Below are positions 1 to 31,400 of a DNA stretch of 64,000 nucleotides, in pieces (the stretch's first letter is position 1; each line of letters opens with the position of its first letter). Source of the stretch: Primula veris (lineage: Eukaryota > Streptophyta > Magnoliopsida > Ericales > Primulaceae); contig OY821740.1 of the NCBI GenBank assembly GCA_963682055.1, forward strand, positions 32,628,795-32,692,794, read 5' to 3'. A model generated the notes under the pieces. The model was not told the origin of the DNA, did not search any database, and was given only the letters and a program-made list of their open reading frames with translations. Position numbers and translations under genes: made by a program.

Positions 1-3000
1 CTGAACTAAACTTTCTAACAAAAAACAGTCTGAACTAAACAGTCTGACAAAAACACAATTGATCATTTTTTAAAAAGAGTGAGCTATATAAAAAAGAACT
101 AAAAACAGTCTGAACAGTCTATAAAAACAGTCTGAACTAAATTTAAAAAGAGTCCAAGCTATATAAAAGTATCATAAATACAAAACAGTCTTCATTAAAA
201 CAATTCATACTGTTTTAAACAGTCTGAGGTAAATGTAAAGAGTGTGAGACCTAATTGTATCATAAACACAAAAATAAAAAGAGTCTGACTTACAATGGTC
301 CATTTGCGTTGTGAATTTCTTGAATTTTGCTGAAGATGTTGTCAGGGAGCTTTGTTGTGATATCATTCTCGTTTTTATTTGTGATGATATCGTGTGCTCT
401 CTCTGTTTTGTCCGGTACATGGTCTACTAGACTACTGAAGTCGATTTGTGGGAAATAGCCTTCGTCACCTTGGTCGTCCAGTACAGGAGTTTTCTTTTTT
501 GATGCTCTCCCTTTTGCTGTTCGTCCACCCTTTGGTTTTTTATTTGGTTTTTCCAACAACGGCTCAGGAGCGCCTACGTCTGCGACCATTTCAGACTTGT
601 CATCTTGATCAGCTTGCTTACGTTTCCGTAGCTGGTTCTCATTTTCTTGGATTTTTGTTGGAGAGTCTATTTTACTTGGTGTGTACTTCACTGGTGGTCT
701 CCTATCTGTTCTTGCTCTGATACGGAGAATGTTGGATCCCGGACCATCATACTCATAACCGAGTCTTTCCAGAATTTCTTTGCGGATTAAATCTAGCTGT
801 GGAGTCTGTATATCCGCATTTAGGAGAGCATCAGTTATAACTTCATCGATTCGGCACTTTTGTGAGTAGTCGTGTGCCGCATACACCTGTGCATCATTGT
901 ATAGCCCTTCTTTTAGCTCATGTTCCCCTGCAACAATAGGAGGAAAAATAGTCTGAATAATTCATTGAAATAATACAGTCTGATTATGATAGTAATAATA
1001 CAGTCTGAGGTTTCTATTTGATATATTTCATTGAAAGAAGAATTTACTAAGCAAAAGAAAGGGATTCAGACTGTTTTTAATAATACATTACGAATGATAG
1101 TAACAATACAGTCTGAGATTTTAATAATATATTTTCAGACTGTTTTTAGTAATACAATATGAATGAAAATAGTTGCATTAATATTCAAATAATTTTTGTA
1201 TTATTCAGACTCTTTTTACAGTTTTGTACTGTAATAATTCAAAAACAGTCTGAATAATTCATTGAAATAATACAGTCTGATTTATGATAGTAATAATACA
1301 GTCTGAGGTTTCTAGTTGATATATTTCATTTAAACAAATTTACTAAGCAAAATAAAGGGATTCAGACTGTTTTTAATAATACATTACGAATGATAGTAAC
1401 AATACAGTCTGAGATTTTAATAATATATTTTCAGACTGTTTTTAGTAATAGAATATGAATGCAAAATAGTTTATATGATTACAATAGAGGTACTCTACCT
1501 TTACCTTGTAGGTCTTCCTCAAGCTGCTTTTTTTCATTCTCCAATTTTTCCATTCTTTGCTTCATCTCGACTTCTTTGTTTCGCATTTTATTTTTTTCTA
1601 CATCTGCCTCTTGCTGGAGATCAGAGACAATTCTTTGGTATTTGGTGATCATCTCCTCCTTTTCTATAACACAAACAGTCTGACTTAGGGAAACCAAGCT
1701 AATGGAAAAAAAATTAGACAAGAGAGGAAGAGTTTGAATTGCATTTTATGGCGTTTACCTTTTATTTCCTTCTCGAGCATTTTCTTTTCCTCAACCATTT
1801 GTTCAATCTTTTGTTTCCACTCAGGTACCCACTTGGACTTTAATCTTTCTTCTAAAGCCAAAGATTTCCCAAGGTCGTTGATGCTTTTCTGCATTGTGGT
1901 TGTTAGGTCTTTATACTCTTTAATTTGCAAAATTGCCTCATCTAGGTTTTTCTGCAATTCAGCCACTTTGGTCTCTTCTTTTTCGGACTCTTCTTCTCTC
2001 CTCTCTTCGTGAATTGGACTTTCATTCACATGCATATCATCGGCACTGTAATTATAACAGCCACCACCTCCAGAGGGACCTCCCTCGTCATATTCGGTGC
2101 TCTTAGATGTTCCCATTATTTCATTGAATTTTGGAGTTTTTGGTGTTCCGAATTGTTTCCGAAGGGAGATGGTAAAATTGTTGTCTGACTCATTTTCGCT
2201 CTCAGAGTCTTCTTCTGTGTTTTCCGAGCCTTCATTTTCAGAGTTTTCCAAGCCTTCCTCTTCTGTTGAACTAGAGTAAACATTCTGAGGATCTTCAACA
2301 TCTTCGTCTATCTCTTTCTCCAACTCCTCATCTGTTAATCGCTTTGGTTTCGGAGGTAGCTTCTTTTTACCATCATAAATAACGAGGTTTTTTGATTGTT
2401 TTCTACATCCCTATGATGATAATTTAAAGAATGAAAAGGTTTTTAGAAGCAATTGTATAGATAGAATAAAAACAGTCTACAATTGTATAGAAATAGTGTT
2501 ATACCTTTTCATTGCACAGGTCTACAATTGTGAACCTTGAGGAACACAACTTGAAGAATGAAAAGACGTCCCATTTGACACACAAAGCCTTTGTGGATGC
2601 TTCTTTTGTCATGTCCGGTTTTGAAATATTGAACTTTTCAAGGATGACATACTGTACAGATGGAAATACAGTTTTTAAGAATACAGTCTGAGATTTAAAT
2701 GATAGTAACAATACAGTCTGATTTTTAATAATATATTTTCAGACTGTTTTTACAGTTTTTGTAAAAACAGTCTGAGATAGATAGAGCAATAATATATTGT
2801 CTTAAATGATTCAGACTGTTTTTTAAATGATTCAGACTGTTTTTTAGTATATTGTCTTAAATGATAGTAACAATACATTATGAGATTTAATAATATATTA
2901 TTCAGACTGTTTTTAGTATTATTCAGACTGTTTTTACAGTTTTGTAAAAACAGTCTGAGATTCTTTTGTCATGTCCGGGTTTGAAATATTGAACTTTTCA

Positions 3001-5081
3001 AGGATGACATACTGTACAGATGGAAATACAGTATTTAAGAATACAGTCTGAGATTTAAATGATAGTAACAATACAGTGTGATTTTTAATAATCTATTTTC
3101 AGACTGTTTCTAGTATTATTCAGACTCTTTTTACAGTTTTTGTAAAAACAGTCTGAGATAGATAGAGCAATAATATATTGTCTTAAATGATTCAGACTGT
3201 TTTTTAAATGATTCAGACTGTTTTTTAAATGATTCAGACTGTTTTTTAAATGATTCAGACTGTTTTTTAGTATATTGTCTTAAATGATAGTAACAATACA
3301 TTATGAGATTTAATAATATATTATTCAGACTGTTTTTAGTATTATTCAGACTGTTTTTACAGTTTTGTAAAAACAGTCTGAGATTTTTTGATATTTTTTA
3401 AACATACTGAGATTTAATACAGTCTGATTTATGATAGTAATAATACAGTCTGATTTATAATGGAAATAAATAAAGAGTCTGATGTAATAATAAACAACTT
3501 AAGAACATTATGAACATATAAAAAGAGTACTAACTTATAAAAAAGAGTATGAACTAATAAAAAAAGGTCTTGAGAAGTAATTTTATTGTACCGGTATCGT
3601 GAGTAGACACGTGGACAGTGATCTTGGGTCTTGGTTGTTGAGCGACTCCATAAGCTTCTCATGTATATGAGTTGCCCAATCATATTCCTTTATCTCTTTG
3701 ATGTCACCGGCAACTATTTTCAAGTACCCCAATGCTATGGTCATGCCGCTCACCGTCAAGAAAAATGCATTTAGCATGTACAATGTTACCAGTCGGACGA
3801 CGTCCTCTCTACCAACTTTTGTTGTTAATACCAATGCTTCGTTCAATGCCTTTACGATAGCTGTTTTGGTTAGGTTGGATTTGTTGAGTTTATTTGAAAA
3901 GCATCTTTCAACAAAGCTGTGGTAGGCTTCTTGGTTTTTAGCAAAGCTTGTGAGAGCTATTGGATTTTCAGCATTACCAGAAATTCCATAAATGTCACGC
4001 ACACGGTCTCTCTCTATTGGAACTGTGAATCTACCTAGCTTAAGGGCCTGTGAGTTTCGGTCGTACCTCAAGGCCATCTGGTACAATTCTTTATCACTTT
4101 TCCTAGCCTGGTTAGTGGTTAATTCTCCATTTCTAGAAGCATTGATCAATTCCCAGAACGGACAGTGTTGCTTAACTAATTCAAGTTGTGCCGGATTGAA
4201 ATTTGTTTCGACAAAGAACTTGATTACAGTAACCAGGTTTGATTTGTACTGTATGTTGCCTTTTTTGGTGTTTGTGGTGTCAGATGGTTGGTTTTTGGGG
4301 ATTGTCGAATGTTTGATGGCAATATGTTTCTAAAAACAATAACAAAAAGTATGTAAACAGTCTGTGTAAACTCATGCACATATTAAAATACAGAGAAAGT
4401 AAACAGTCTGAGTATTTTTCCAACATAATCCTATTAGAATATAAAGAGTATGAGTACCAATTTTATTAGAATCGCTAAACATAAAAACAGTCTGAATACT
4501 ATTTTTACCAATTTTATTACGAAAATAACTGAATATAAACAGTCTGAATACGAATTTTATTAGAATCACTAAACATAAACAGTCTGAATACTATTTTTAC
4601 CAATTTTATTACGAAAATAACTGAATATAAACAGTCTGAATACGAATTTTATTAGAATCACTAAACATAAACAGTCTGAATAATATTTTCAACAATTACA
4701 TATAGATCACTAAACAGTCTGAATCACTAAACAGTCTGAATACTTTTTTCCAGGCTGTTTTATGTTTTTATTCCCAAAACAACTGAATATAAACAGTCTG
4801 AATACTTTTTTCCAGGCTGTTTTATGTTTTTATTCCCAAAACAACTGAATATAAACAGTCTGAATAATATTTTCAACAAATATTATTAGAATCGCAATTT
4901 TTATTTAAAAATAGAGTATGAACAATAGAGTATGAACCCTAATTTATATATAAAATGGGTAAACACAATTAATAACCCTAATTTATGTAAAATGTCACTG
5001 AACTTACCCTAATTAAATTAATTTATATATTTTTCAGACTGTTTTAATAAAAACAACGATTAATAAACTTACCTTCACCAT
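1..5081 (-). CDS. Ulp1-fusion MULE gene, left copy, exons 1-6 only (runs off window)
   Basis: This is the second copy of the gene described at 10411-16863, with the same exon structure. Exons on the minus strand are 5081-5073, 4329-3592, 2651-2505, 2410-1759, 1663-1505 and 927-294. The donor after exon 6 (GTAAGT at 293) opens an intron that leaves the window, so the five exons encoding the Ulp1 protease domain are not seen. The six exons are open and in frame. Amino-acid differences from the right copy are few: Glu for Gly in the acidic segment near 2200, Gly for Glu near 2118, and Asp for Gly near 471. Introns differ in motif copy number, notably a 21-bp unit present four times near 3190-3270 but twice in the other copy. 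Whether the protease half is intact cannot be judged from this window. Confidence 0.8.
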
Positions 5082-5355
5082 GTTGTTTTCTGAAATTAAC
5101 GAAGAGAGGTTTTTCAGTTTGATAGCCGGATTTGTTGGCGGTTTAAAGAGAGAAAGTTTCAGGGTTTTCGGAGAGAGAGATGAGAGAGAGAGGAGAGAGA
5201 GAGAAAAAAAGTTTCTGTTTTTTTTAATTGTGTTATGATGACGTCAGCAATTTTTTAATGATGTCAGCAAATGGACCAATCCTTAATTAGTTTCAGTTTC
5301 ATGGACCAATCCTTAAATACTTGTGTTTTCATGGACCAATCCAAAATTTACCCTT
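5082..5355 (-). promoter_or_regulatory. Leader and promoter of the left Ulp1-fusion gene; right end of the element copy
   Basis: Just upstream of the ATG (minus strand) lies a GA-rich tract on the plus strand (about 5149-5210), which would be a CT-rich 5' leader. A perfect palindrome TGACGTCA, the classic bZIP/TGA-factor core, is at 5239-5246, followed by a partial copy TGATGTCA near 5259. Three copies of TGGACCAATCC (about 5273, 5313 and 5332) close the element and contain CCAAT on the plus strand. Apart from one copy near 5379, just past the end, the CAGTCTG motif is absent here. The promoter function is inferred from position. Confidence 0.55.
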
Positions 5356-6350
5356 ATAATAAACACTGTTTTTTAAAACAGTCTGAATGCAAGAAAAAAA
5401 CAGTATGAAGTATTGAATTTTAATAATAAACGCAATTGATCTCTAAAAACCTAACCAAAACATGCATTGTGTTACAGAAAACAGTCTGAGTTATTATATA
5501 ACAAGAAATACAGTAGCTCAGACTGTTTATTAATAACTCAGACTGTTTTCTGTAACTCTTGAATACAATAGCTCAAACTGTTTTTTTAAAACAGTCTGAA
5601 TAAATCATACATTGTGTTAGAAAATTCTGATTTATTATTTATTATAATAAATCTCTAAAACCTAAATTCAGCAAAGCAATTTGAGCTAAACTCAGCAAGA
5701 AAAACGAAGCTAGCAATAAAAAAACAGTTTGAAGAGAGAGAACCTGTCTGTCGAGAGAGAGAGATATACAGAAATTTGATAAAATTCGTTCAGTGAGAGA
5801 GATATACAGCTAATAGTGTATATAGATGGTTTAGAGAGAGAGATGGAGAGAAACGGTTTAGAGAGAGAGAGATAGATACAACTGTTTAAAAAAACAGAAT
5901 ATGTATAGTATATATATAGTGGACCAATCCTTAATTAGTTTCATAAATAATGGACCAATCCTTAAATGAATTTTATAGCTGGACCAATCCTTAAATACTT
6001 TTGTTTTCGTGGACCAATCCTTAATTTTCTCTTATTATAATAATTCAGACTGTTCTGTATGATTTTGTATTGTTAAAATTCAAGAGTTCATACTGTTTTT
6101 TCTTGTATTCGGACTGTTTTTAAAAACAGTCTGAGCTATTTATTCTAGAGTTACAGAAAACAGTCTGAGTTATTATAAACAGTCTGAGCTATTGTATTCT
6201 TATTATATAATAACTCAGACTGTTTTTTGTAACACAATGTAGGTTTTTGTTAGGTTTTTAGAGATCAATTGCGTTTATTATTAAAATTCAATACTTCATA
6301 CTGTTTTTTTCTTGTATTCAGACTGTTTTAAAAAACAGTGTTTATTATAA
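5356..6350. repeat. Inverted repeat pair, about 150-bp arms
   Basis: The arm at 5356-5505 matches the reverse complement of about 6200-6350, including the stretch AGAGATCAATTGCG and the flanking CAGTCTG motifs. The arms enclose about 700 bp with the GA-rich and TGGACCAATCC segments. A transcript crossing both arms could fold back, which is a possible source of double-stranded RNA. Confidence 0.8.
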
Positions 6351-6617
6351 TAATTCAGACTGTTCTGTATGATTTTGTATTGTTAAAATTTAAGAGTTCA
6401 TACTGTTTTTTCTTGTATTCAGACTGTTTTTAAAAACAGTCTGAGCTATTGTATTCTAGAGTTACAGAAAACAGTCTGAGTTATTATAAACAGTCTGAGC
6501 TATTGTATTCTTATTATATAATAACTCAGACTGTTTTTTGTAACACAATGTAGGTTTTTGTTAGGTTTTTAGAGATCAATTGCGTTTATTATTAAAATTT
6601 AATACTTCATACTGTTT
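6036..6617. repeat. Tandem duplication of about 272 bp, 310-bp period
   Basis: Positions 6036-6307 and 6346-6617 are nearly identical and carry the same series of motif copies in the same order. The second copy stops where the transposase start region begins. This shows that motif number grows by local duplication just upstream of the transposase. Confidence 0.85.
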
Positions 6618-6639
6618 TTGTGCACAGGTATTTTTTCTG

Positions 6640-9232
6640 ATGGATTCGTTTGATTTAGTAATGTATTGTCGATATAATGATCAATGTGTCCCTGTTGCTC
6701 TGAATAAGCGTATGACCTATGCGGAGTTATTACATACAATAAGTAATAGGTTTAGCTTGAATTTGGATTCAGTGTCTCTAACCTACTTAGCAATTAGAGA
6801 TGAGCGATGTTTATTGAGATCGGATGATGAGTTGAAAGATATGGTCGCTCTGTTTAACGTGTTGGGAAAAAAAATAGTAGAGATTCTAGTTTTTGTTGGG
6901 ACTGTATCCACTTGCACTGTTGGTACTTCGAAGGAAATAAGTGCTGATTGTTCTGAATTTTCGGATGATGATGATTGGTGTGATGCAGGTTCTAGTTTAG
7001 CTGTTAGGAAGGTTTATAAAACGAGTGAGTGGGCAAACTTGATAACTGGGGTTGGGCAGATTTTTAGTTGTGCTGATCACTTTAGAGAGTCATTACGGAA
7101 ATTTTGTATATATGAAGGTCATGTCCCCTGGTTTGGAAGGAATAACTCGGTTAGGGTGGTCGCTTATTGTGAAGAGAGGGATAGTATTGGCTGTAGCTGG
7201 TACATATATGCTGGTGTGTGGACCTCAGACCAACAATTTAAGATTAGAAAGTTTGAATCACAACATACATGCAAAAAGTTAGCCCCAGGTGCTCTGAACA
7301 AGCATGTAAATAGCAAGCTCATATCGAAAATAATGGATGAATATGTGAGGGAAAATCCAAATTTAGCCCCTTCTGCTATAATATCGCATTTAAGGATTGG
7401 TTATGGGTTGGAGATAAGCTATTATAAAGCTTGGAATGCTGTCCAAATGTCTAGCGGAATGCACAGTGGGGATATCGATGAATCATACAACCAATTAGAA
7501 AGGTATTTTGTGGGTTTAGAATCGACAAATCCTGGGAGTCGCAGTGTCCTGGAACTTGATAAGGATGGGAATGGTTCAAATCAATTCAAAAGGGTATTTT
7601 TCTCTCTTCATGGCTGCATAAAAGGGTTTAGGGATGTTCGCCCCATGCTTTTCATTGACGGAACATTTTTAAAAGGAAAATATAAGGGTGTTTTATTGTC
7701 CGCAGTCGGCAAGAATGGCAATAAAGGTTTGTTTTTCCTTTTTCAAGCTCTTTTTTTGTTTGTTTTTTGTTACATTAATGGTTTATATAACTCAGACTGT
7801 TTTTAAATTTAGTTCAGACTGTTTTGTTATACAAGCCTAAATTGTGTTGTTATCAGACTGTTTTATATACAACTTTTGTTATATCAGACTGTTTTATAAA
7901 AATGTTTTTGTTACCAGATTGTTTTTGTTATCAGACTGTTTTTGTTATCAGATTGTTTTTGTTATCAGACTGTTTTTGTTATCAGACTGTTTTTGATTTT
8001 CAGACTGTTTTTGATTTTCAGACTGTTTTTGATTTTTTTAATGTTACAGGGTTGTATCCACTTGCTTTTGCTATTGTTAGCAGTGAGAATATTGATAATT
8101 GGGGTTGGTTTCTAGAACAACTGAAGTTAACTATAGGTGATGACCGTCCTTTGACATTTTTCTCGGATAGACATATTGGGTTGTTGGATGGTATGTCTCG
8201 GATTTTTCCCAACGCAGACCATTATTACTGTCTACGCCATTTGAAGGATAATTTGAAATTGAAGTTTAGTGGGGGTGATGGAACAAAAAGGACTGAAATT
8301 ATTAATTTGTTGCAAACTTGTGCAACTTCTGCTACAATTCCTTTGTTTGAACAGAATATGAAGTTGTTGCGCAATATGGGGGGTCGTAAAATAGATAAAT
8401 TTATGGAGAATTGCAATCCTATGAAATGGGCCGAAGCATATTGTGTAAAGTCGCGATATGGTGAGACAACTTCCAATGCTGTGGAATCATTCAATAATTG
8501 GATCAATGATATTAGAGAATTACCTATCACTGAACTGATTGATAAGCTAAGATTGAAATTGATGAAATGGTTCGATGAAAGAAGAATCAAAGCAGGTTTG
8601 TGGCAACTCAGACTGTTATGTGAATTCGTGTTTGTCATCATATCAGACTGTTTTTACTAGGTATACGTTTTTAAGAGATTTTTGGTTATGTTTTTTTTTT
8701 TGCAGCAACATGGAAAGGTGTTCTGTGTCCTTTCTACCAAGAAAAATGGGACACATTCATTCACAACGGTCTGTCGTTTTTGGTTGTGAGGTCAGGGTTT
8801 TGGAAATATGAAGTGCTGTCAGCTCCATCCGAATACGTGGACCTGGGACATCGGCAATGCTCATGTCATGAATGGAAGAGGACTGGGTTCCCGTGCCAAC
8901 ATGCAGTTTTGTGTATTTCTAGGGACAAACTGCCTATGGAGAATTTTGTTGAAAAATGGTTCTTTGTGGACATTTATCGAAGTTCGTACAATACGCCAAT
9001 CAACCCAGTCCCTAGTTCTATTTGGCGAGATTCTGAATTGATTAATGAGTCAAACATTAAACCTCCAGAAACATCAAGGCCTCCGGGAAGGCCTCAAAAG
9101 AAGCGTATTCCATCAGGTGGTGAGGCAAATCCAGTCGCGAAAAAGAAGAAAGCTAATCAATGCGGGAGGTGCAAGAAATATGCAAATCATAATCAACGGA
9201 CGTGCAAAGAGAAGCTTTCTTCTGAAGGATGA
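6640..9232 (+). CDS. MULE (MuDR-type) transposase, modelled 719 aa, apparently intact
   Basis: It cuts and rejoins the element ends during transposition and would act in the nucleus. Exons are 6640-7726, 8050-8595 and 8706-9232, all with GT-AG introns in matching phase. The order is: a PB1-like N-terminus (about residues 1-88), a MuDR-type DNA-binding region (about 143-225, with Cys/His residues), the MULE DDE core, a SWIM zinc finger and a C-terminal zinc knuckle. Catalytic residues are Asp340 in FIDGTF, Asp402 in FFSDRH and Glu508 in SNAVES. The SWIM ligands are Cys596, Cys598, Cys608 and His610. The knuckle is Cys697, Cys700, His706, Cys711, one residue longer than the usual spacing. The ATG at 6640 is chosen because the PB1-like domain begins there and an acceptor-like site precedes it; an upstream in-frame start at 6580 is unlikely. 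Both introns are filled with CAGACTG motifs. No frameshift or stop is seen. Confidence 0.92.
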
Positions 9233-10410
9233 TCGTGAATAGATTTTTTAGTTGTATATTAGACTTTTTTTAGTTTTATATGATGTTGGCCTTTTTCAGA
9301 CTGTTTTTAATAATACAGTCTGATTTTATGATATTAATAATACAATATGAGGTTCTTGTATTCATACTGTTTTACAAATCAGTTATTTAGAGTTCTTTTT
9401 ACAGATCAATTGCGTTTTTTTTAGGGTTATTATTATTCTTATTCAGACTGTTTTCAGACTGTTTTAGAGATCAATTGCTGTTATGTTTTTTGTGCACAGG
9501 TATTTTTTCTGATGGATTCGTTTGTGCACAGGTATTTATTCAGACTGTTTACAGTTTTGATTTACAGTTTTATATTAAAAACAGTCTGAGATTATGATTG
9601 TAATACAGACTGTTTATATGTTTTCAGACTGTTTTTAATAATACAGTCTTATTTTTACGATTGTAATAAAGAAAACGAAGAAAACTAGTTACATCAATCA
9701 TCATATTATTCAGACTCTTTTTTATTAGTCAATAGACTTCTTTAAAACAGTCTGAATTGTGAGTAATGAAACAGTCTGAGATTCTTTCTGAAAACAGTAT
9801 GATACTCTAATGAACATAAAAACAGTCTGAGTTTCTAATGATACATGTCATATGATGTTTTTTTAGTATATTGTCGTAAATGATTCAGACTGTTTGTAAT
9901 AATACATTATGATTGATAGTAATAATACAGTCTGAGATTTAATAATATATTTTCAGACTGTTTATATTTCATTGAAATATATTAACGGAAGAAATAAAGT
10001 GAAGCAAACTAGTTACATCAATCATATTATTCAGACTCTTTTTTTTTAGTCAATAGATATCTTTAAAACAGTCTGAATTGTGTGAGTACTGAAACGGTCT
10101 GAGATTCAGACTGTTTATAATAATACAGTATAAATGATAGTAATAATACAGTCTGAGATTTAATAATATTTTTCAGACTGTTTTTTGTAATACAGTATAA
10201 ATACGTTTTTATATGTTTTTAATAATACATTTATGATTGATAGTAATAATACAGTCTTAAGATTCATTGAAAAATATATTGGCGAAAGAAAATGGAAAAG
10301 AAACGAAATCATATTCGAACAAAATAATAGAACTCTTTTCTATTCAGACTGTTTACAAATAATGGAACTATTTTTACATTCAGACTGTTTACAACTAATT
10401 TTTACATTAA
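9233..10410. other. Convergent spacer between the two MULE genes, motif-rich
   Basis: No coding sequence is seen. The spacer holds the 3' ends of both genes and more than twenty copies of CAGWCTG. A direct repeat of about 105 bp lies at about 9665-9770 and 9990-10090, sharing ACTAGTTACATCAATCAT and the following motif run. A fragment of the transposase start region is also present (9492-9537, listed separately). Overlapping transcripts from the two convergent genes could form double-stranded RNA here; this is inference. Confidence 0.75.
9492..9537 (+). repeat. Displaced copy of the transposase start-codon region
   Basis: Positions 9492-9523 match 6620-6651, spanning the presumed leader splice site, the ATG and the first codons (M-D-S-F). 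Its first 14 bases then recur directly at 9524-9537. The open frame ends soon after, so it is not a gene. The upstream stretch with ATCAATTG also resembles the transposase leader. It looks like a small template-switch or repair insertion. Confidence 0.8.
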
Positions 10411-13400
10411 TCAAACTGTTTTTGTTAATTCAGACTGAATGTATCGATTGACGATTCTCGTTATTATCTTGGCCTTGAACTCTAGTATCTTGTCGGAAGT
10501 CGTCTCTCTTGTGACAGGTTCACCATTGATGATTGTCTCCATGTTGTAGCACACATACAATGCACAGTCTGATCTGTAAAAAAATAAAACATGTAAAATT
10601 AATTTTGATTTAGATGAATAGTAAAAACAGTCTGAATATCAGTAGGCACATATTTTTCTTACGTGGCTCCTTGATAGGGACAGTCTGTTACAACGTCTAA
10701 CGTGTACCCATCTTGTGAATCAAGTGAGAAGGAGGGCACATCAGCTATCATTTTCAATTTTTCTTGTACAAAGGCCATCTGTAACATTAAAAAAAATATA
10801 TACATTTAAAAGATGAAGAGGGTAGTTTTTGCAAATTCAGACTGTTGTATTTTAAAAAGAGTCTGAATTACCACTAGTTTGGCGTCATCAAGGTAAGGGT
10901 CTGGTCTGTTGATATTGCAAGGAGGTATGTTGCTATTATAAAAACCCCACTTTTTCGATTCGACGTTCAGAACCAATAGAGTCCAGTGGTCTGCCTCTAC
11001 GTCAATGGGTCGGTTCCTATTCGAGTTAATAGGGAAGAACAATAACTTGTATCCGTTCTGAACGTGCTTCCTCAGCTTATCGGTGATTTTCGCATCGAGC
11101 TCATCCTCGTATCTTTTCCTGTCTTTTAAAAAAAACTACAAACCAAACAACAACGAAAAGGTTTAAGATAAAATCTCAGACTCTTTTTGTAAAGAAACAA
11201 AGTGATGCATTGACAACATAAAAAGAGTTTGTGTTTTTACCCATAATACGGAGGTCAATATCTTGAATTTTTTTGTAGATTTTGCCTGGTATTCTTGCCT
11301 CAATATGTGGGTATACCCATTTATGATCTGCGATAAGGACAAGTTTTAGAAAGAGTATGAGTACAAGAGCTTGTAAGCAAGCAATAAAATTGTACGATCC
11401 CTGTATACTTACATTACAGCATAGCAACTGGCCATTAATTAAGTTGTAGATGTCGTTGAGAGTGATGAAGTAATCCTTATTGTTTGAACCGAGTTTTGAG
11501 AACAAGGCGGCACTGTAAATTAAAATTTTATAGTAAGCACAAAACAGTCTGAGATTGAAAAAAACAGTCTGACAACAAAACAGTCTGAGATAAAACAGTC
11601 TGAGATTGAAAAAAACAGTATGACAACAAAACAGTCTGAGTTAAAAAAAAACATTAAAAGTTGTATATAAAAGGGACACAATAGATCATTTTTTTTAAAG
11701 AGTCTGAGCTATATAAAAAAGAGTCTGAGCTATTAAAAAACAGTATGGGGCTTGTATAAAAAAACAGTCTGAACTAAATTTATCATTCTGAACTAAACAG
11801 TCTGAACTAAACTTTCTAACAAAAAACAGTCTGAACTAAACAGTCTGACAAAAACACAATTGATCATTTTTTAAAAAGAGTGAGCTATATAAAAAAGAAC
11901 TAAAAACAGTCTGAACAGTCTATAAAAACAGTCTGAACTAAAATTAAAAAGAGTCCAAGCTATATAAAAGTATCATAAATACAAAACAGTCTTCATTAAA
12001 ACAATTCATACTGTTTTAAACAGTCTGAGGTAAATGTAAAGAGTGTGAGACCTAATTGTATCATAAACACAAAAATAAAAAGAGTCTGACTTACAATGGT
12101 CCATTTGCGTTGTGAATTTCTTGAATTTTGCTGAAGATGTTGTCAGGGAGCTTTGTTGTGATATCATTCTCATTTTTATTTGTGATGATATCGTGTGCTC
12201 TCTCTGTTTTGTCCGGTACATGGTCTACTAGACTACTGAAGTCGATTTGTGGGAAATAGCCTTCGCCACCTTGGTCGTCCAGTACAGGAGTTTTCTTTTT
12301 TGATGCTCTCCCTTTTGCTGTTCGTCCACCCTTTGGTTTTTTATTTGGTTTTTCCAACAACGGCTCAGGAGCGCCTACGTCTGCGACCATTTCAGACTTG
12401 TCATCTTGATCAGCTTGCTTACGTTTCCGTAGCTGGTTCTCATTTTCTTGGATTTTTGTTGGAGAGTCTATTTTACTTGGTGTGTACTTCACTGGTGGTC
12501 TCCTATCTGTTCTTGCTCTGATACGGAGAATGTTGGATCCCGGACCATCATACTCATAACCGAGTCTTTCCAGAATTTCTTTGCGGATTAAATCTAGCTG
12601 TGGAGTCTGTATATCCGCATTTAGGAGAGCATCAGTTATAACTTCATCGATTCGGCACTTTTGTGAGTAGTCGTGTGCCGCATACACCTGTGCATCATTG
12701 TATAGCCCTTCTTTTAGCTCATGTTCCCCTGCAACAATAGGAGGAAAAATAGTCTGAATAATTCATTGAAATAATACAGTCTGATTATGATAGTAATAAT
12801 ACAGTCTGAGGTTTCTATTTGATATATTTCATTGAAAGAAGAATTTACTAAGCAAAAGAAAGGGATTCAGACTGTTTTTAATAATACATTACGAATGATA
12901 GTAACAATACAGTCTGAGATTTTAATAATATATTTTCAGACTGTTTTTAGTAATACAATATGAATGAAAATAGTTGCATTAATATTCAAATAATTTTTGT
13001 ATTATTCAGACTCTTTTTACAGTTTTGTACTGTAATAATTCAAAAACAGTCTGAATAATTCATTGAAATAATACAGTCTGATTTATGATAGTAATAATAC
13101 AGTCTGAGGTTTCTAGTTGATATATTTCATTTAAACAAATTTACTAAGCAAAATAAAGGGATTCAGACTGTTTTTAATAATACATTACGAATGATAGTAA
13201 CAATACAGTCTGAGATTTTAATAATATATTTTCAGACTGTTTTTAGTAATAGAATATGAATGCAAAATAGTTTATATGATTACAATAGAGGTACTCTACC
13301 TTTACCTTGTAGGTCTTCCTCAAGCTGCTTTTTTTCATTCTCCAATTTTTCCATTCTTTGCTTCATCTCGACTTCTTTGTTTCGCATTTTATTTTTTTCT

Positions 13401-16400
13401 ACATCTGCCTCTTGCTGGAGATCAGAGACAATTCTTTGGTATTTGGTGATCATCTCCTCCTTTTCTATAACACAAACAGTCTGACTTAGGGAAACCAAGC
13501 TAATGGAAAAAAAATTAGACAAGAGAGGAAGAGTTTGAATTGCATTTTATGGCGTTTACCTTTTATTTCCTTCTCGAGCATTTTCTTTTCCTCAACCATT
13601 TGTTCAATCTTTTGTTTCCACTCAGGTACCCACTTGGACTTTAATCTTTCTTCTAAAGCCAAAGATTTCCCAAGGTCGTTGATGCTTTTCTGCATTGTGG
13701 TTGTTAGGTCTTTATACTCTTTAATTTGCAAAATTGCCTCATCTAGGTTTTTCTGCAATTCAGCCACTTTGGTCTCTTCTTTTTCGGACTCTTCTTCTCT
13801 CCTCTCTTCGTGAATTGGACTTTCATTCACATGCATATCATCGGCACTGTAATTATAACAGCCACCACCTCCAGAGGGACCTCCCTCGTCATATTCGGTG
13901 CTCTTAGATGTTTCCATTATTTCATTGAATTTTGGAGTTTTTGGTGTTCCGAATTGTTTCCGAAGGGAGATGGTAAAATTGTTGTCTGACTCATTTTCGC
14001 TCCCAGAGTCTTCTTCTGTGTTTTCCGAGCCTTCATTTTCAGAGTTTTCCAAGCCTTCCTCTTCTGTTGAACTAGAGTAAACATTCTGAGGATCTTCAAC
14101 ATCTTCGTCTATCTCTTTCTCCAACTCCTCATCTGTTAATCGCTTTGGTTTCGGAGGTAGCTTCTTTTTACCATCATAAATAACGAGGTTTTTTGATTGT
14201 TTTCTACATCCCTATGATGATAATTTAAAGAATGATAAGGTTTTTAGAAGCAATTGTATAGATAGAATAAAAACAGTCTACAATTGTATAGAAATAGTGT
14301 TATACCTTTTCATTGCACAGGTCTACAATTGTGAACCTTGAGGAACACAACTTGAAGAATGAAAAGACGTCCCATTTGACACACAAAGCCTTTGTGGATG
14401 CTTCTTTTGTCATGTCCGGTTTTGAAATATTGAACTTTTCAAGGATGACATACTGTACAGATGGAAATACAGTTTTTAAGAATACAGTCTGAGATTTAAA
14501 TGATAGTAACAATACAGTCTGATTTTTAATAATATATTTTCAGACTGTTTCTAGTATTATTCAGACTCTTTTTACAGTTTTTGTAAAAACAGTCTGAGAT
14601 AGATAGAGCAATAATATATTGTCTTAAATGATTCAGACTGTTTTTTAAATGATTCAGACTGTTTTTTAGTATATTGTCTTAAATGATAGTAACAATACAT
14701 TATGAGATTTAATAATATATTATTCAGACTGTTTTTAGTATTATTCAGACTGTTTTTACAGTTTTGTAAAAACAGTCTGAGATTCTTTTGTCATGTCCGG
14801 GTTTGAAATATTGAACTTTTCAAGGATGACATACTGTACAGATGGAAATACAGTATTTAAGAATACAGTCTGAGATTTAAATGATAGTAACAATACAGTG
14901 TGATTTTTAATAATCTATTTTCAGACTGTTTCTAGTATTATTCAGACTCTTTTTACAGTTTTTGTAAAAACAGTCTGAGATAGATAGAGCAATAATATAT
15001 TGTCTTAAATGATTCAGACTGTTTTTTAAATGATTCAGACTGTTTTTTAGTATATTGTCTTAAATGATAGTAACAATACATTATGAGATTTAATAATATA
15101 TTATTCAGATTGTTTTTAGTATTATTCAGACTGTTTTTACAGTTTTGTAAAAACAGTCTGAGATTTTTTGATATTTTTTAAACATACTGAGATTTAATAC
15201 AGTCTGATTTATGATAGTAATAATACAGTCTGATTTATAATGGAAATAAATAAAGAGTCTGATGTAATAATAAACAACTTAAGAACATTATGAACATATA
15301 AAAAGAGTACTAACTTATAAAAAAGAGTATGAACTAATAAAAAAAGGTCTTGAGAAGTAATTTTATTGTACCGGTATCGTGAGTAGACACGTGGACAGTG
15401 ATCTTGGGTCTTGGTTGTTGAGCGACTCCATAAGCTTCTCATGTATATGAGTTGCCCAATCATATTCCTTTATCTCTTTGATGTCACCGGCAACTATTTT
15501 CAAGTACCCCAATGCTATGGTCATGCCGCTCACCGTCAAGAAAAATGCATTTAGCATGTACAATGTTACCAGTCGGACGACGTCCTCTCTACCAACTTTT
15601 GTTGTTAATACCAATGCTTCGTTCAATGCCTTTACGATAGCTGTTTTGGTTAGGTTGGATTTGTTGAGTTTATTTGAAAAGCATCTTTCAACAAAGCTGT
15701 GGTAGGCTTCTTGGTTTTTAGCAAAGCTTGTGAGAGCTATTGGATTTTCAGCATTACCAGAAATTCCATAAATGTCACGCACACGGTCTCTCTCTATTGG
15801 AACTGTGAATCTACCTAGCTTAAGGGCCTGTGAGTTTCGGTCGTACCTCAAGGCCATCTGGTACAATTCTTTATCACTTTTCCTAGCCTGGTTAGTGGTT
15901 AATTCTCCATTTCTAGAAGCATTGATCAATTCCCAGAACGGACAGTGTTGCTTAACTAATTCAAGTTGTGCCGGATTGAAATTTGTTTCGACAAAGAACT
16001 TGATTACAGTAACCAGGTTTGATTTGTACTGTATGTTGCCTTTTTTGAGGTTTGTGGTGTCAGATGGTTGGTTTTTGGGGTTTGTCGAATGTTTGATGGC
16101 AATATGTTTCTAAAAACAATAACAAAAAATCTGTAAACAGTCTGTGTAAACTCATGCACATATTAAAATACAGAGAAAGTAAACAGTCTGAGTATTTTTC
16201 CAACATAATCTTATTAGAATATAAACAGTCTGAGTACCAATTTTATTAGAATCGCTAAACATAAAAACAGTCTGAATACTATTTTTACCAATTTTATTAC
16301 GAAAATAACTGAATATAAACAGTCTGAGTACCAATTTTATTAGAATCGCTAAACATAAAAACAGTCTGAATACTATTTTTACCAATTTTATTACGAAAAT

Positions 16401-16863
16401 AACTGAATATAAACAGTCTGAATACGAATTTTATTAGAATCACTAAACATAAACAGTCTGAATACTATTTTCAACAATTACATATAGATCACTAAACAGT
16501 CTGAATCACTAAACAGTCTGAATACTTTTTTCCAGGCTGTTTTATGTTTTTATTCCCAAAACTACTGAATATAAACAGTCTGAATACTTTTTTCCAGGCT
16601 GTTTTATGTTTTTATTCCCAAAACAACTGAATATAAACAGTCTGAATAATATTTTCAACAAATATTATTAGAATCGCAATTTTTATTTAAAAATAGAGTA
16701 TGAACAATAGAGTATGAACCCTAATTTATATATAAAATGGGTAAACACAATTAATAACCCTAATTTATGTAAAATGTCACTGAACTTACCCTAATTAAAT
16801 TAATTTATATATTTTTCAGACTGTTTTAATAAAAACAACGATTAATAAACTTACCTTCACCAT
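10411..16863 (-). CDS. Ulp1-like cysteine protease fusion gene of the MULE, 11 exons, modelled 1022 aa
   Basis: Minus-strand exons are 16863-16855, 16109-15372, 14452-14306, 14211-13560, 13464-13306, 12728-12095, 11512-11413, 11327-11241, 11135-10872, 10778-10663 and 10573-10411; all junctions keep the frame. Residues 4-300 form a globular region like the N-terminal domain (DUF1985-like) of transposon-borne plant Ulp1 genes. Residues 320-410 are acid/Ser-rich, about 410-570 coiled coil, and about 680-720 Lys/Arg-rich (likely nuclear signal). Residues 780-1022 are a Ulp1 (C48) domain, normally removing SUMO-type tags: LLCCNIINGY substrate segment, His892 in DHW, Gln966 and nucleophile Cys972 in SDCALYVC. 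The usual catalytic Asp is replaced by Asn909 (FYNS), so activity is uncertain. The weakest junction is the exon 2 donor (GTACAA). It may be a protease, or a regulator that has kept a binding fold. Confidence 0.85.
14401..15165 (-). repeat. Tandem duplication in intron 2 with a pseudo-exon copy of exon 3
   Basis: The segment from about 14786 to 15165 repeats about 14401-14783. It includes the first half of exon 3 (coding YVILEKFN...) and its acceptor CTGTACAG, followed by the same motif-rich intron DNA. The extra exon piece at about 14786-14833 lacks the exon 3 donor and is unlikely to be used. The left element copy has the same duplication at about 2600-3385, so it predates the tandem doubling of the element. 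Confidence 0.8.
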
Positions 16864-17136
16864 GTTGTTTTCTGAAATTAACGAAGAGAGGTTTTTCAGT
16901 TTGATAGCCGGATTTGTTGGCGGTTTAAAGAGAGAAAGTTTCAGGGTTTTCGGAGAGAGAGATGAGAGAGAGAGGAGAGAGAGAGAAAAAAAGTTTCTGT
17001 TTTTTTAATTGTGTTATGATGACGTCAGCAATTTTTTAATGATGTCAGCAAATGGACCAATCCTTAATTAGTTTCAGTTTCATGGACCAATCCTTAAATA
17101 CTTGTGTTTTCATGGAACAATCCAAAATTTACCCTT
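16864..17136 (-). promoter_or_regulatory. Leader, promoter and right terminus of the right element copy
   Basis: The organisation matches 5082-5355: a GA-rich tract (about 16930-16986), the palindrome TGACGTCA at 17020-17027, and TGGACCAATCC-type repeats near 17052, 17082 and 17113 (the last mutated to GGAACAATCC). Similarity to the other copy ends after ACCCTT at 17136, where host DNA begins. Confidence 0.6.
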
Positions 17137-21653: not shown

Positions 21654-22013
21654 TTAGACCTTGAAGCACAACAAATGGTGGTGAGTATGGTGATGTTGAT
21701 GATGGTGGTGGTGGTGGTGGTGGATAGAACTATCTTTGACAATTTTACCCTGGACTCTCCTAAATTCCTCCACATGGCAAGGGATTGAAATAGGTCCTTT
21801 TTGGTCAAATCCATACTCCTCTTCAGCTTCTTTCAATAGCTTAATGAACAAAGGGTGATTTATATACACCACTGGGATGATAAACCTTTCTTGCTCTTCC
21901 CCTATGCCAACCATAATTGCTAAGCACCCTTTTGGAACATTTTTTATCTCATTTTTGTGGTGATCATGAACATGAAAGTGGAATTTTTGTATGTTTTTTT
22001 CACCACTTCCCAT
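21654..22013 (-). CDS. SAUR32: SAUR family protein (SAUR32-like), 119 aa
   Basis: Small auxin up RNA proteins inhibit PP2C-D phosphatases at the plasma membrane and so promote cell expansion. This intronless 119-aa frame contains the SAUR core VPKGCLAIMVG...RFIIPV...YINHPLF..LLKEAEEEYGFDQKG, then IPCHVEEF, over about residues 27-90. The N-terminus MGSGEK and the His-rich tail (an eight-His run, then further His clusters) match the Arabidopsis SAUR32 type. The ATG at 22013 is preferred because MGSGEK is the conserved start; an upstream non-ATG extension is not needed. The His run is encoded by a GTG/GTT-rich repeat on the plus strand near 21677-21722. A TATA-like tract lies about 200 bp upstream. 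The gene sits between two inverted copies of a dispersed repeat. Confidence 0.93.
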   Translation of the reverse strand: MGSGEKNIQKFHFHVHDHHKNEIKNVPKGCLAIMVGIGEEQERFIIPVVYINHPLFIKLLKEAEEEYGFDQKGPISIPCHVEEFRRVQGKIVKDSSIHHHHHHHHQHHHTHHHLLCFKV

Positions 22014-22210
22014 TATGAGCAGTACTAGCAAATATTTACACAAGAAAATGTTTTTAGGGTTATAAAAAGATTTGAGAAAGAGGCCAAGAAATGGAAAGTT
22101 TGAAGAGGGTGAAGGAAGAATCTGTGAAAGATTTCGGGATGTTACTCATGATATTATGAAAAACATGAGAATTTGAGAGAAATAAAGGGAGTGATTTAGG
22201 GAGGGTGGAA

Positions 22211-28444: not shown

Positions 28445-31400
28445 CTACTTTTCTTTGGTGTAATAACGAACACCAAAGGCCAATCCCAAGATCAAAAGAG
28501 GAACAAGGAACTGCAAAATCTTGATCAGAAACTCGGGGGTCTTGTCAGGATTGTAGGCTGCTTGTGTGGGTGGTACATACTGACGTTTCAATGGTATAGA
28601 TGATGCATCCATTTCACCAATGTAATACTGATCCATCATGTCTCTAGCAGCATCGCTGTGGCCGACATCTTCAAAATCATCTGTCGCATCTTTGCCTAAA
28701 TTCGACAAAAGTAGAAGATATTTAAGAAAGAAATTACAGATTTGAAGCTTATTGATACTAAGTGAAATAATGTGTGCTAGAGTTGGAATTTGATGTTTAA
28801 AATTTACCAGTGGCAGCTAGCAACACTTCGTCGCCTCCAGGATGATCGTCCATGAACGGCGTGACGTCATACACCTGGAAAAACAAATTTTATTCTCCTC
28901 AGTTCATTGCAGTCACTAAATTAAGAAATTAATGTCATTTAGTATCCTTTTTGCAGATGACTTGGTTCATACAAGCGATAATATTCTGCCATCATGTAAA
29001 TATTGAATATAAAGGGAAGAAATCTCTTTGAGCAATACCCAACGTTTTCTTTTGTAGAGGATGCTTATGCTTTTCTTTCCAAGAAACAATTTATTTGGTG
29101 TTTTGTAAAATTAAAAGCACATATCATAATCCAATGGTTCTTTTTAGTGCGGTGCTTGTTTTTCAACATCCTAACTGCCAAAGCAGTTTTCTAAAAGAGG
29201 CAGTACAACCAAACTAGCCCTTGAAACGAAAGTGAGGAAGTGAAGCCACAACAAAAACGACTACGTACGCCATCTTACGAGAGACTAGATAAACATCCAG
29301 ACTGAACAGTACCTTAAATCAATAGAACCTTATAATCTTTACAAGTAAGAGCTGCTTCTACAATCCACCAAAAAGAATAGCATGTTACCTTACATCTACT
29401 TTACAAGTTTAGTTATGCTACAGATACACCCACCCAAATATTTTACCCAAAAACCTACCCGCTGATGTAGCGGTATATGTGGAGCAAACCTGCATTTATT
29501 GCTTTTTTGAAAAATAAAAAAGCAACAAATATAGGTAATGGTCCACATATCCATCCACATCAACTTGTCAAGTTTTTGGGTAGAAGATTTCGTAATAAGA
29601 ATCATTTCTCTAAACCTAGAAAAGTGATGATATTCACTTTTAACAGAAAGTACCACCACTATTTAGCTTTTATATCAATCAACCCAGTTCTTCGCCCACT
29701 TCAAAGAACTCCATATTGTTTTACCACCACTGCGAACAATCCCCAAACATGTATTGATTATCCGGTTATGTAACAAGCAATAATCGCGTTCAAGAAGTTG
29801 CAAAAGAAAGTAGGTTCCACAGCAGCAAAGAAAGTAGGTTCCACAGCAGCAACTAGCTCTAACAACTTGATGCTAAAACAGACTTATAGCACTTAATAGT
29901 GAATCAATACCATTGTCTATTTGCTTCAACCGATTGAACAAAAACTTATTAAATTCTACAGTTCCATATTTTAGCAAAAGAGCAATTTCTTCAAAGAAAT
30001 TTATAATTAGAACATCAAAAGCTTCTTTAGATAAAGAGAGACATCTCATTTTCAGATAGCTTCTCTGTAAAACTCATGAAGACAGGGATATCTTGAAAGA
30101 AGACTTTAAGAATTTCGACTAGATTTTGAGCATAATTTATGGTTTGATTAAGCTCAAGGTTGCAAACAAGCTTCGAAGTTCTAATTTTCTAGCCAAGTAT
30201 TGAAAGGCAAGTAGCTCGGTACCATATGCAGCCCTACCATTTGGTTAGACTGACTCAACTATACCAGATATTATACGGGATTATATCTTAACCATGCTAT
30301 TAAAAAAATTCATGTAAATTACACATAATTCCAAAGACATATAACATGATTTATAATTTTAGTGAAACAATCTGATGAGATTGATAATACTGTTACAACT
30401 TTGCTGAGAAGCATATCCACGAGTAATCGAATTAATCTCCACTTTCCATGATAAGACTTTCTACACATTTTTCCTCATAATCGCGGATAATTATAGGTTC
30501 CCAATAATTTAGTTTAAACAGGAAGACGAGCAACTTTAGTATGGAACTTTAATTTACAGAACAAGCAACATGGCCTTTCCGTTGAAAATCTTTCCCTTTT
30601 ATTAATCCCCTAGCTCAAAGTCACTTGTAACTATAGTCACTATGGATGCAGATGAACCAAAGACTAGCTTCCTAACCGAAATTTGTTTACAAGTTCAAGT
30701 CTAAGCTTAGGACTGAAGTTGCTTTCTGATTGTTATTAATTAAGATGAAAAAATACTATCAATAGTGTGAGAACTAATATCTTAGCCTACAATCCTTGAC
30801 ACAGCCTATTACCTTTCTATATCATTTACTTTTGAATTAAAGTAGGTCATCTAGGAAAGCAAGATTATTAACCGTGCAAACAAATTTGCCCTGGCCTGGC
30901 CACATCACAATGTTGAGAAATTTCAATATTTCACTAAAAGGTCCAACACTCGGCAAACAACAATTCTCACTATCAAATTTAAATTCAAAAGACAGCCTAT
31001 TACCTATAAGAATGCCCAGCAGGCAATAATTCTCATCACAAACATAGAACAATTCTAATCCCCAATCTCATTTAAAAGACGGCAATAATGAGAACCCAGC
31101 AGACTAAATTCCCATCCCAGGCATAAACTTTAATTTGTCGTTCCTCATACCTATCCCTAAGCTTATATCCTCAAAAGAGAACCCAGCTGGGAATATTCTC
31201 ATCAGATTATCGCCTTGATTAACTTCGATTTGGAGCAAGTAAACTAGTTTATCTGAAGTTGAGAAAAATTCTAGGTTCACATAACTTAACACTTTTACCT
31301 TTTAAATTAATTTGAGGCTGTGTAAATTGTAAAACTTGGTTCATCCTAAAATTTTACGCCTTTTTAGGCTTAAAAATTAAAAAGAAGCTTTGATGCTGGT

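Follow-up and report, generated by a model that had tools for sequence, protein, structure and literature searches.

The window analyzed in this study, a 64,000-nucleotide stretch of Primula veris DNA (contig OY821740.1, positions 32,628,795 to 32,692,794), begins with Mutator-like element (MULE) DNA in which the word ACAGTCTGA is repeated throughout the non-coding regions. A sequence-only reading had taken positions 1-17136 for one MULE. Self-alignment indicates instead that positions 1-5355 are ~99% alike to positions 11802-17136, and with 40 kb of upstream DNA added two MULEs are seen head to tail. Element 1 starts ~6.26 kb to the left of the window and ends at 5355, and the complete element 2 follows. 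Word counts revealed no further elements in the 40 kb upstream or in the remainder of the window. GC content is ~32% over the window as a whole. The features are as follows:

1..5355, no strand assigned: right-hand portion of element 1, which adjoins element 2 in tandem (self-alignment, end comparison)
5356..17136, no strand assigned: complete MULE, element 2, 11,781 bp (self-alignment, ends compared with other copies, 9-mer count)
5356..6035, minus strand: left-terminal 680 bp, inverted (compared with element 1 and copy C1:6638303)
6640..7726, plus strand: transposase exon 1, with PB1, DBD_Tnp_Mut and the start of the MULE domain (gene model, Pfam)
8050..8595, plus strand: transposase exon 2, MULE domain (gene model, Pfam)
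8706..9232, plus strand: transposase exon 3, which encodes the SWIM finger and is preceded by an AG acceptor (8704-8705)
10411..16863, minus strand: VANC-like gene, 11 exons, 1036 amino acids, no stop (splice sites inferred from sequence)
16863-16855, 16109-15372, 14452-14306, 14211-13560, 13464-13306, 12728-12095, minus strand: VANC-like exons 1-6 (gene model)
11512-11413, 11327-11182, 11118-10872, 10778-10663, 10573-10411, minus strand: VANC-like exons 7-11 (gene model)
15366..16109, minus strand: DUF1985-like exon, coding 15372-16109 (weak Pfam match)
10432..11327, minus strand: Ulp1/C48 peptidase domain, residues 814-1030, exons 8-11 (Pfam PF02902)
10564..10572, minus strand: the sole exonic copy of the exact 9-mer, coding for Ser-Asp-Cys at the presumed catalytic cysteine
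17017..17136, plus strand: right end with subterminal AAGGATTGGTCCA-type repeats (end comparison, near-identical copies)

The transposase gene codes for 719 amino acids in three exons, and Pfam places its product in the MULE superfamily (PF10551, E 3.2e-20, together with PF03108 and SWIM). A PB1 domain is present at its N-terminus. Element 2 and a further copy at C1:6638303-6650108 have an uninterrupted transposase frame; that of element 1 contains one stop. Note that the count of exonic words, the Pfam scan and the comparison of transposase frames set the start 3 bases further on (718 amino acids). The second gene is convergent to the transposase gene, which is the VANC/KIU architecture, and its frame is open in all three copies compared (element 2, element 1 and C1:6638303). 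Its Ulp1 domain matches PF02902 with an E value of 3.8e-9 over profile positions 7-211 of 217. By eye, the presumed active site retains the histidine, glutamine and cysteine, with an asparagine at the usual aspartate. The middle of the protein is probably coiled. A PDB sequence search with the 1036-residue protein gave seven matches at E ≤ 1, all within residues 460-626 and none to Ulp1 or DUF1985, and a homologue search found none at E ≤ 0.001 among the 7986 best-word-sharing candidates that were scored. A single-sequence structure of the DUF1985-like exon was discarded (mean pLDDT 39.8).

The core CAGWCTG had been put at roughly 160 occurrences in 17 kb and about one in the other 47 kb, and the counts bear this out, with 158 in positions 1-17136 and one (at 29298) in the 46.9 kb of positions 17137-64000. 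Over the whole window the 159 occurrences compare with 3.52 expected (100 shuffles, the highest of which contained 11). The real unit is the exact 9-mer ACAGTCTGA, present in 153 copies versus 0.39 expected, with the final copy stopping at 16824. When the CAGWCTG occurrences are oriented by a centre T, an A precedes 157 of the 158 and an A follows 154 of the 158, and the symmetric form ACAGTCTGT occurs only four times. The ACAGTCTGA site is directional and non-palindromic; therefore, the argument that an odd palindrome suits a dimeric reader falls, and a palindromic dimer site is ruled out. Among single-base variants of the word in element 2, AGAGTCTGA occurs 11 times and ACAGTATGA nine times, with every other variant at three or fewer.

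The reported avoidance of exons also holds. By the gene models, exons occupy 5268 of the 11,781 bp of element 2 (5356-17136), yet they contain just one of its 104 exact 9-mers. Both orientations of the word are found in the leader (9 forward, 8 reverse), the spacer (8/11) and the VANC gene body (30/14), a pattern that suits a site in DNA better than a signal in RNA. Within the intron stretch of the transposase gene, all 11 words have the same orientation. Many words are located in tandem repeats and some lie near splice sites. In the VANC half of element 2, the 8-mer core is found 58 times, in 44 different flanking contexts.

This family has many copies in its own genome. The 11-bp form AAACAGTCTGA occurs 7553+7843 times (15,396) genome-wide versus 117+150 (267) for the reversed pattern, and the DUF1985-like exon has at least 150 matches. 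At least 82 copies of this exon span residues 1-248 at ≥90% identity, and at least 67 do so at ≥97% identity, 62 of them without a stop. Three full copies that we compared differ by 0.19-0.57% in exons and by 0.37-1.01% in other non-coding DNA, and this near-identity points to a young burst of the family. The right end (17017-17136) has at least 40 near-identical copies, one at each of the 40 candidates that were scored out of 1234. In the copy at C1:6638303-6650108, the left and right ends make up a degenerate inverted repeat (68 of 81 bases matching, 84%) that contains AAGGATTGGTCCA-like repeats. The sequence-only reading had likened the element to MULEs without terminal inverted repeats (TIRs); in this family degenerate TIRs are recognisable.

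Surroundings were sampled in 15 stretches around the word matches listed, which cover up to 6.65 Mb of contig C1. These places comprise six clusters (at least four words each) and six single words. By blastn, five clusters are homologous to the element, one as a near-complete copy and four as shorter copies, and so is one of the singles (L020). The sixth cluster, at L019:4998-5347, consists of ~31-bp tandem units with ACAGTCTGA and decayed variants and is without blastn homology to the element. The short derivatives retain the ends and the word arrays, and tblastn found neither the transposase nor the VANC-like gene in them. One derivative, at C1:5591462-5595109, contains 29 words in 3648 bp and is flanked on both sides by TTGTTTCTA, a target duplication of the ~9 bp typical of MULEs. 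The L018 derivative has a near-match (8 of 9 bases, by eye), and inspection by eye gave no target duplication at C1:6638303-6650108 or around the tandem pair.

The word was then compared among relatives of the VANC-like gene, using the focal locus and 13 others that were chosen by distance and place as a subset of those existing, several of them with stops. Unsupervised 8-mer counts in these 14 loci gave the following clades and words:

Clade I: focal element and L035 (66% identical); word ACAGTCTGA
Clade II: L032, L033, L036 and L037 (43-50%); word ACAGTATGA, with ACAGTCTGA as a minority
Clade III: L034, L038, L039 and L040 (30-33%); word TGACAATCTAA
Clade IV: L031, L041 and L042 (31-34%); word GCATACACAAT
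Clade V: L030 (27%); word around TGCATCTAGTTC

The DUF1985 tree supports clades II, III and IV with values of 1.0. Protein identity is at least 0.62 within word classes and at most 0.49 between them, and none of 20,000 label permutations was as good. Specifically, ACAATCTAA occurs 41, 15, 13 and 23 times in the clade III loci, once in L032 and in no other locus, and ATACACAAT occurs 33, 6 and 12 times in the clade IV loci, once in L034 and in no other. The words of clades III-V are nearly absent from clade I and vice versa, with ACAGTCTGA found once in L030. Appreciable sharing is seen only between the sister clades I and II, as ACAGTATGA occurs 1-4 times in four clade I entries and ACAGTCTGA 2-7 times in clade II. 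This shows that the dominant word follows the DUF1985 clade; the loci share ancestry, so the agreement does not amount to many independent events. The clade I and II words are one base apart, and the non-coding DNA of the focal element aligns with that of clade II only in pieces of 30-80 bp, longer alignments being exonic. Plain inheritance of the spacer is thus not a simple reason for the similar word. Two further observations concern these clades. VANC-like residues ~572-663 (12445-12720), which are without a Pfam match, are ~55-64% identical between clades I and II, above the DUF1985-like part, and in L033 of clade II the codons at the Ser-Asp-Cys site differ from those of the focal 10564-10572.

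As a control we scored other DNA in 19 tiles of 6.5 kb (seven from the window, five from upstream and seven from stretches around or beside the listed places). Top word scores ranged from 0 to 25.4 in these tiles, versus 135.9 in the focal locus and above 25.4 in nine of the 13 relatives. The remaining four are L036 (24.0), L042 (24.9), L030 (24.1) and L041 (11.0), and the words of L036, L042 and L041 are those of their clade mates. Clade V is based on L030, the genome count and six word matches at C1:23455437-23464306, a stretch that also holds a VANC-like match (C1:23455549) and a transposase match (C1:23461850) and is inferred to be a clade V copy. Genome counts against reversed controls are 2616/371 for the clade II word, some of whose matches fall in clade I elements, 7026/87 for clade IV and 1630/9 for clade V. 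The condition that would refute the sequence-only reading, equal density of the motif in unrelated elements or genome-wide, was checked in part: the word is in strong excess genome-wide, but five of the six clusters are homologous to this element, and clade I and clades III-V hardly contain each other's words. Putting our odds a little short of even, we suggest that there may be at least five separate VANC-word addresses in a graded series, with a one-base step from ACAGTCTGA to ACAGTATGA through mixed intermediates, an apparent two-base relative in ACAATCTAA, and a core, CAGTAT, in common with Arabidopsis VANC21.

Our interpretation, to which we assign a probability of about 0.7, is that the stretch carries two tandem copies of a recently multiplied VANDAL/KIU-type MULE family whose word arrays would be the address for anti-silencing by the VANC-like Ulp1 protein. 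We favor this because of the domain architecture and convergent genes, the density of the word and its avoidance of exons, the short derivatives that keep ends and arrays (such as the 3648-bp copy), the dominant word following the DUF1985 clade, and the one-base difference between clades I and II despite poorly alignable non-coding DNA. In this mechanism the VANC-like protein would bind ACAGTCTGA and coat its family's non-coding DNA, short derivatives included, where it would remove or block DNA methylation. Lifting of methylation would allow expression of the element genes, and the transposase, probably recognising the separate terminal AAGGATTGGTCCA repeats, would move the elements. Joint drift of protein and word would give each clade its own address.

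Several results weigh against this interpretation. The focal DUF1985 match (E 0.0057, 17.1 bits) is under the 35.1-bit Pfam cut-off, that of clade V is also under the cut-off (E 0.009), and Pfam gave no DUF1985 match in the clade IV protein; it is this weak match together with the word that suggests the second gene is a VANC. Ulp1 similarity is seen in only seven of the 13 relatives (L030, L032-L036 and L040), although the stretches of the remaining loci may stop before Ulp1. The focal element shows no helical (10.5-bp) spacing of the word, the numbers for other clades being too small for this comparison. Among the young copies the word is no more conserved than other non-coding DNA (1.06 versus 1.01%, 0.56 versus 0.37% and 0.79 versus 0.88%). 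Finally, the transposase and the VANC-like gene travel together, so agreement between word and clade alone does not name the reader.

This last point bears on the possibility that the transposase reads the word and that the arrays are transposase-binding sites, which we regard as unlikely. There is a parallel in maize En/Spm, where subterminal 12-bp repeats are bound by TnpA, a protein that is also linked to demethylation. The transposase does have DNA-binding domains (DBD_Tnp_Mut and SWIM), and the transposase matches beside the other clades have diverged too, from 66% at L036 through 53% at L034 and 44% at L030 to 38% at L031. Two further transposase matches, at C3:36195407 and C2:25928669, have no neighbour among the VANC-like matches listed and may be MULEs that lack the second gene. 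However, the words are spread across leaders, introns and spacer and not at the ends, and the ends carry a repeat of their own, AAGGATTGGTCCA, which the short derivatives retain and which makes the transposase less likely as the reader. The printed precedent also gives internal words to VANC (PMC5735166).

A slightly less probable explanation is that the word is satellite-like filler, homogenised by tandem duplication and conversion, and that either nothing reads it or a host factor binds it. The location of many words in tandem repeats and the lack of extra word conservation among young copies would fit filler. Against this stand the variety of flanks around the core, the occurrence of both orientations, the sharp boundary at exons and the different words of different VANC clades. 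A role of the word in RNA, through splicing, termination or stability, is very improbable. It would account for the words near splice sites and the uniform orientation in the transposase intron, but it is at odds with the mixed orientation in leader, spacer and VANC gene body and with the dense words in derivatives where neither gene was found.

Element 2 also differs from its relatives at its left end, where the inverted 680 bp is bounded by the 9-bp TTATAATAA (5356-5364) and its reverse complement TTATTATAA (6036-6044). In element 1 and the copy at C1:6638303 the order of the left end is normal and the 9-bp target is single. Such an inversion is what alternative transposition, known from Ac/Ds, should yield when one copy's right end and the left end of a neighbour or sister transpose jointly into the element; this would also account for the tandem pair. 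Element 2 has an observed/expected CpG ratio of 0.585, against 0.788 for the remaining window, a difference that suits DNA with a history of methylation. Outside the elements, an open reading frame at 21654-22145 (minus strand) resembles, on inspection by eye, a SAUR-type auxin-response protein.

Among known systems, Arabidopsis VANC21 binds YAGTATTAY, VANC6 targets are rich in AGTTGTCC/AGTTGTAC, and non-coding tandem repeats contain both words (PMC5735166). VANDAL21 (Hi) and VANDAL6 resemble the Primula family in a second gene with DUF1985, for which the Primula match is weak and under the Pfam cut-off, in family-specific non-coding words that are often in tandem repeats, and in related VANCs with different words (PMC5735166). 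The idea that this element uses VANDAL/VANC logic with a different motif is supported in part, in that the convergent DUF1985-like/Ulp1 gene, the family-specific non-coding word and the other words of other clades fit it. In contrast to VANDAL21 and VANDAL6, the word here is ACAGTCTGA and not YAGTATTAY or AGTTGTCC/AGTTGTAC, the gene carries Ulp1, degenerate TIRs are recognisable and the DUF1985-like exon exists in at least 67 copies that are nearly identical; some VANDAL-group members do have TIRs (PMC6446971). The VANC21 word and the clade II word ACAGTATGA have CAGTAT in common, which may be chance (PMC5735166).

Gene content is alike in Kaonashi/KIU, whose VANC gene contains Ulp1 (PMC13317346) and runs opposite to the transposase gene (PMC2528002), as does the VANC-like gene of the Primula element. 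According to a review (PMC13317346, citing Sasaki 2022), VANCs with Ulp1 (KIU) find words within their own elements, which then become hypomethylated, and capture of Ulp1 is old and conserved in eudicots. The claim that the present element extends motif-addressed anti-silencing to a Ulp1-carrying MULE is therefore not new, having been in print for Arabidopsis KIU (PMC13317346). What differs from Kaonashi/KIU is the plant and the word. The MULEs with an additional Ulp1 domain in melon, rice and grapevine are similar in this domain, and the available portions of the sources mention no internal word array in them (PMC13317346, PMC2528002).

Our literature search, outside which most subscription papers lie, found no paper on ACAGTCTGA or on a single genome other than that of Arabidopsis with several VANC-word pairs. 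Sasaki et al. in 2022 reportedly described gain and loss of DUF1985, DUF287, Ulp1 and target words in eudicots. In 2017, the question of which part of a VANC sets target specificity was left for later work (PMC5735166). A genome in which several VANC-like proteins are paired with words, two of these differing by a single base, and in which a young family has reached dozens of copies provides natural material for this question, and the Primula loci suggest that several private anti-silencing addresses can coexist in one genome outside Arabidopsis. If so, the VANC recognition code and the path of address change could be read from natural pairs in one genome. Thus, a Ulp1-MULE with motif addressing has already been described for Arabidopsis, and the graded protein-word series in one genome is the unusual part.

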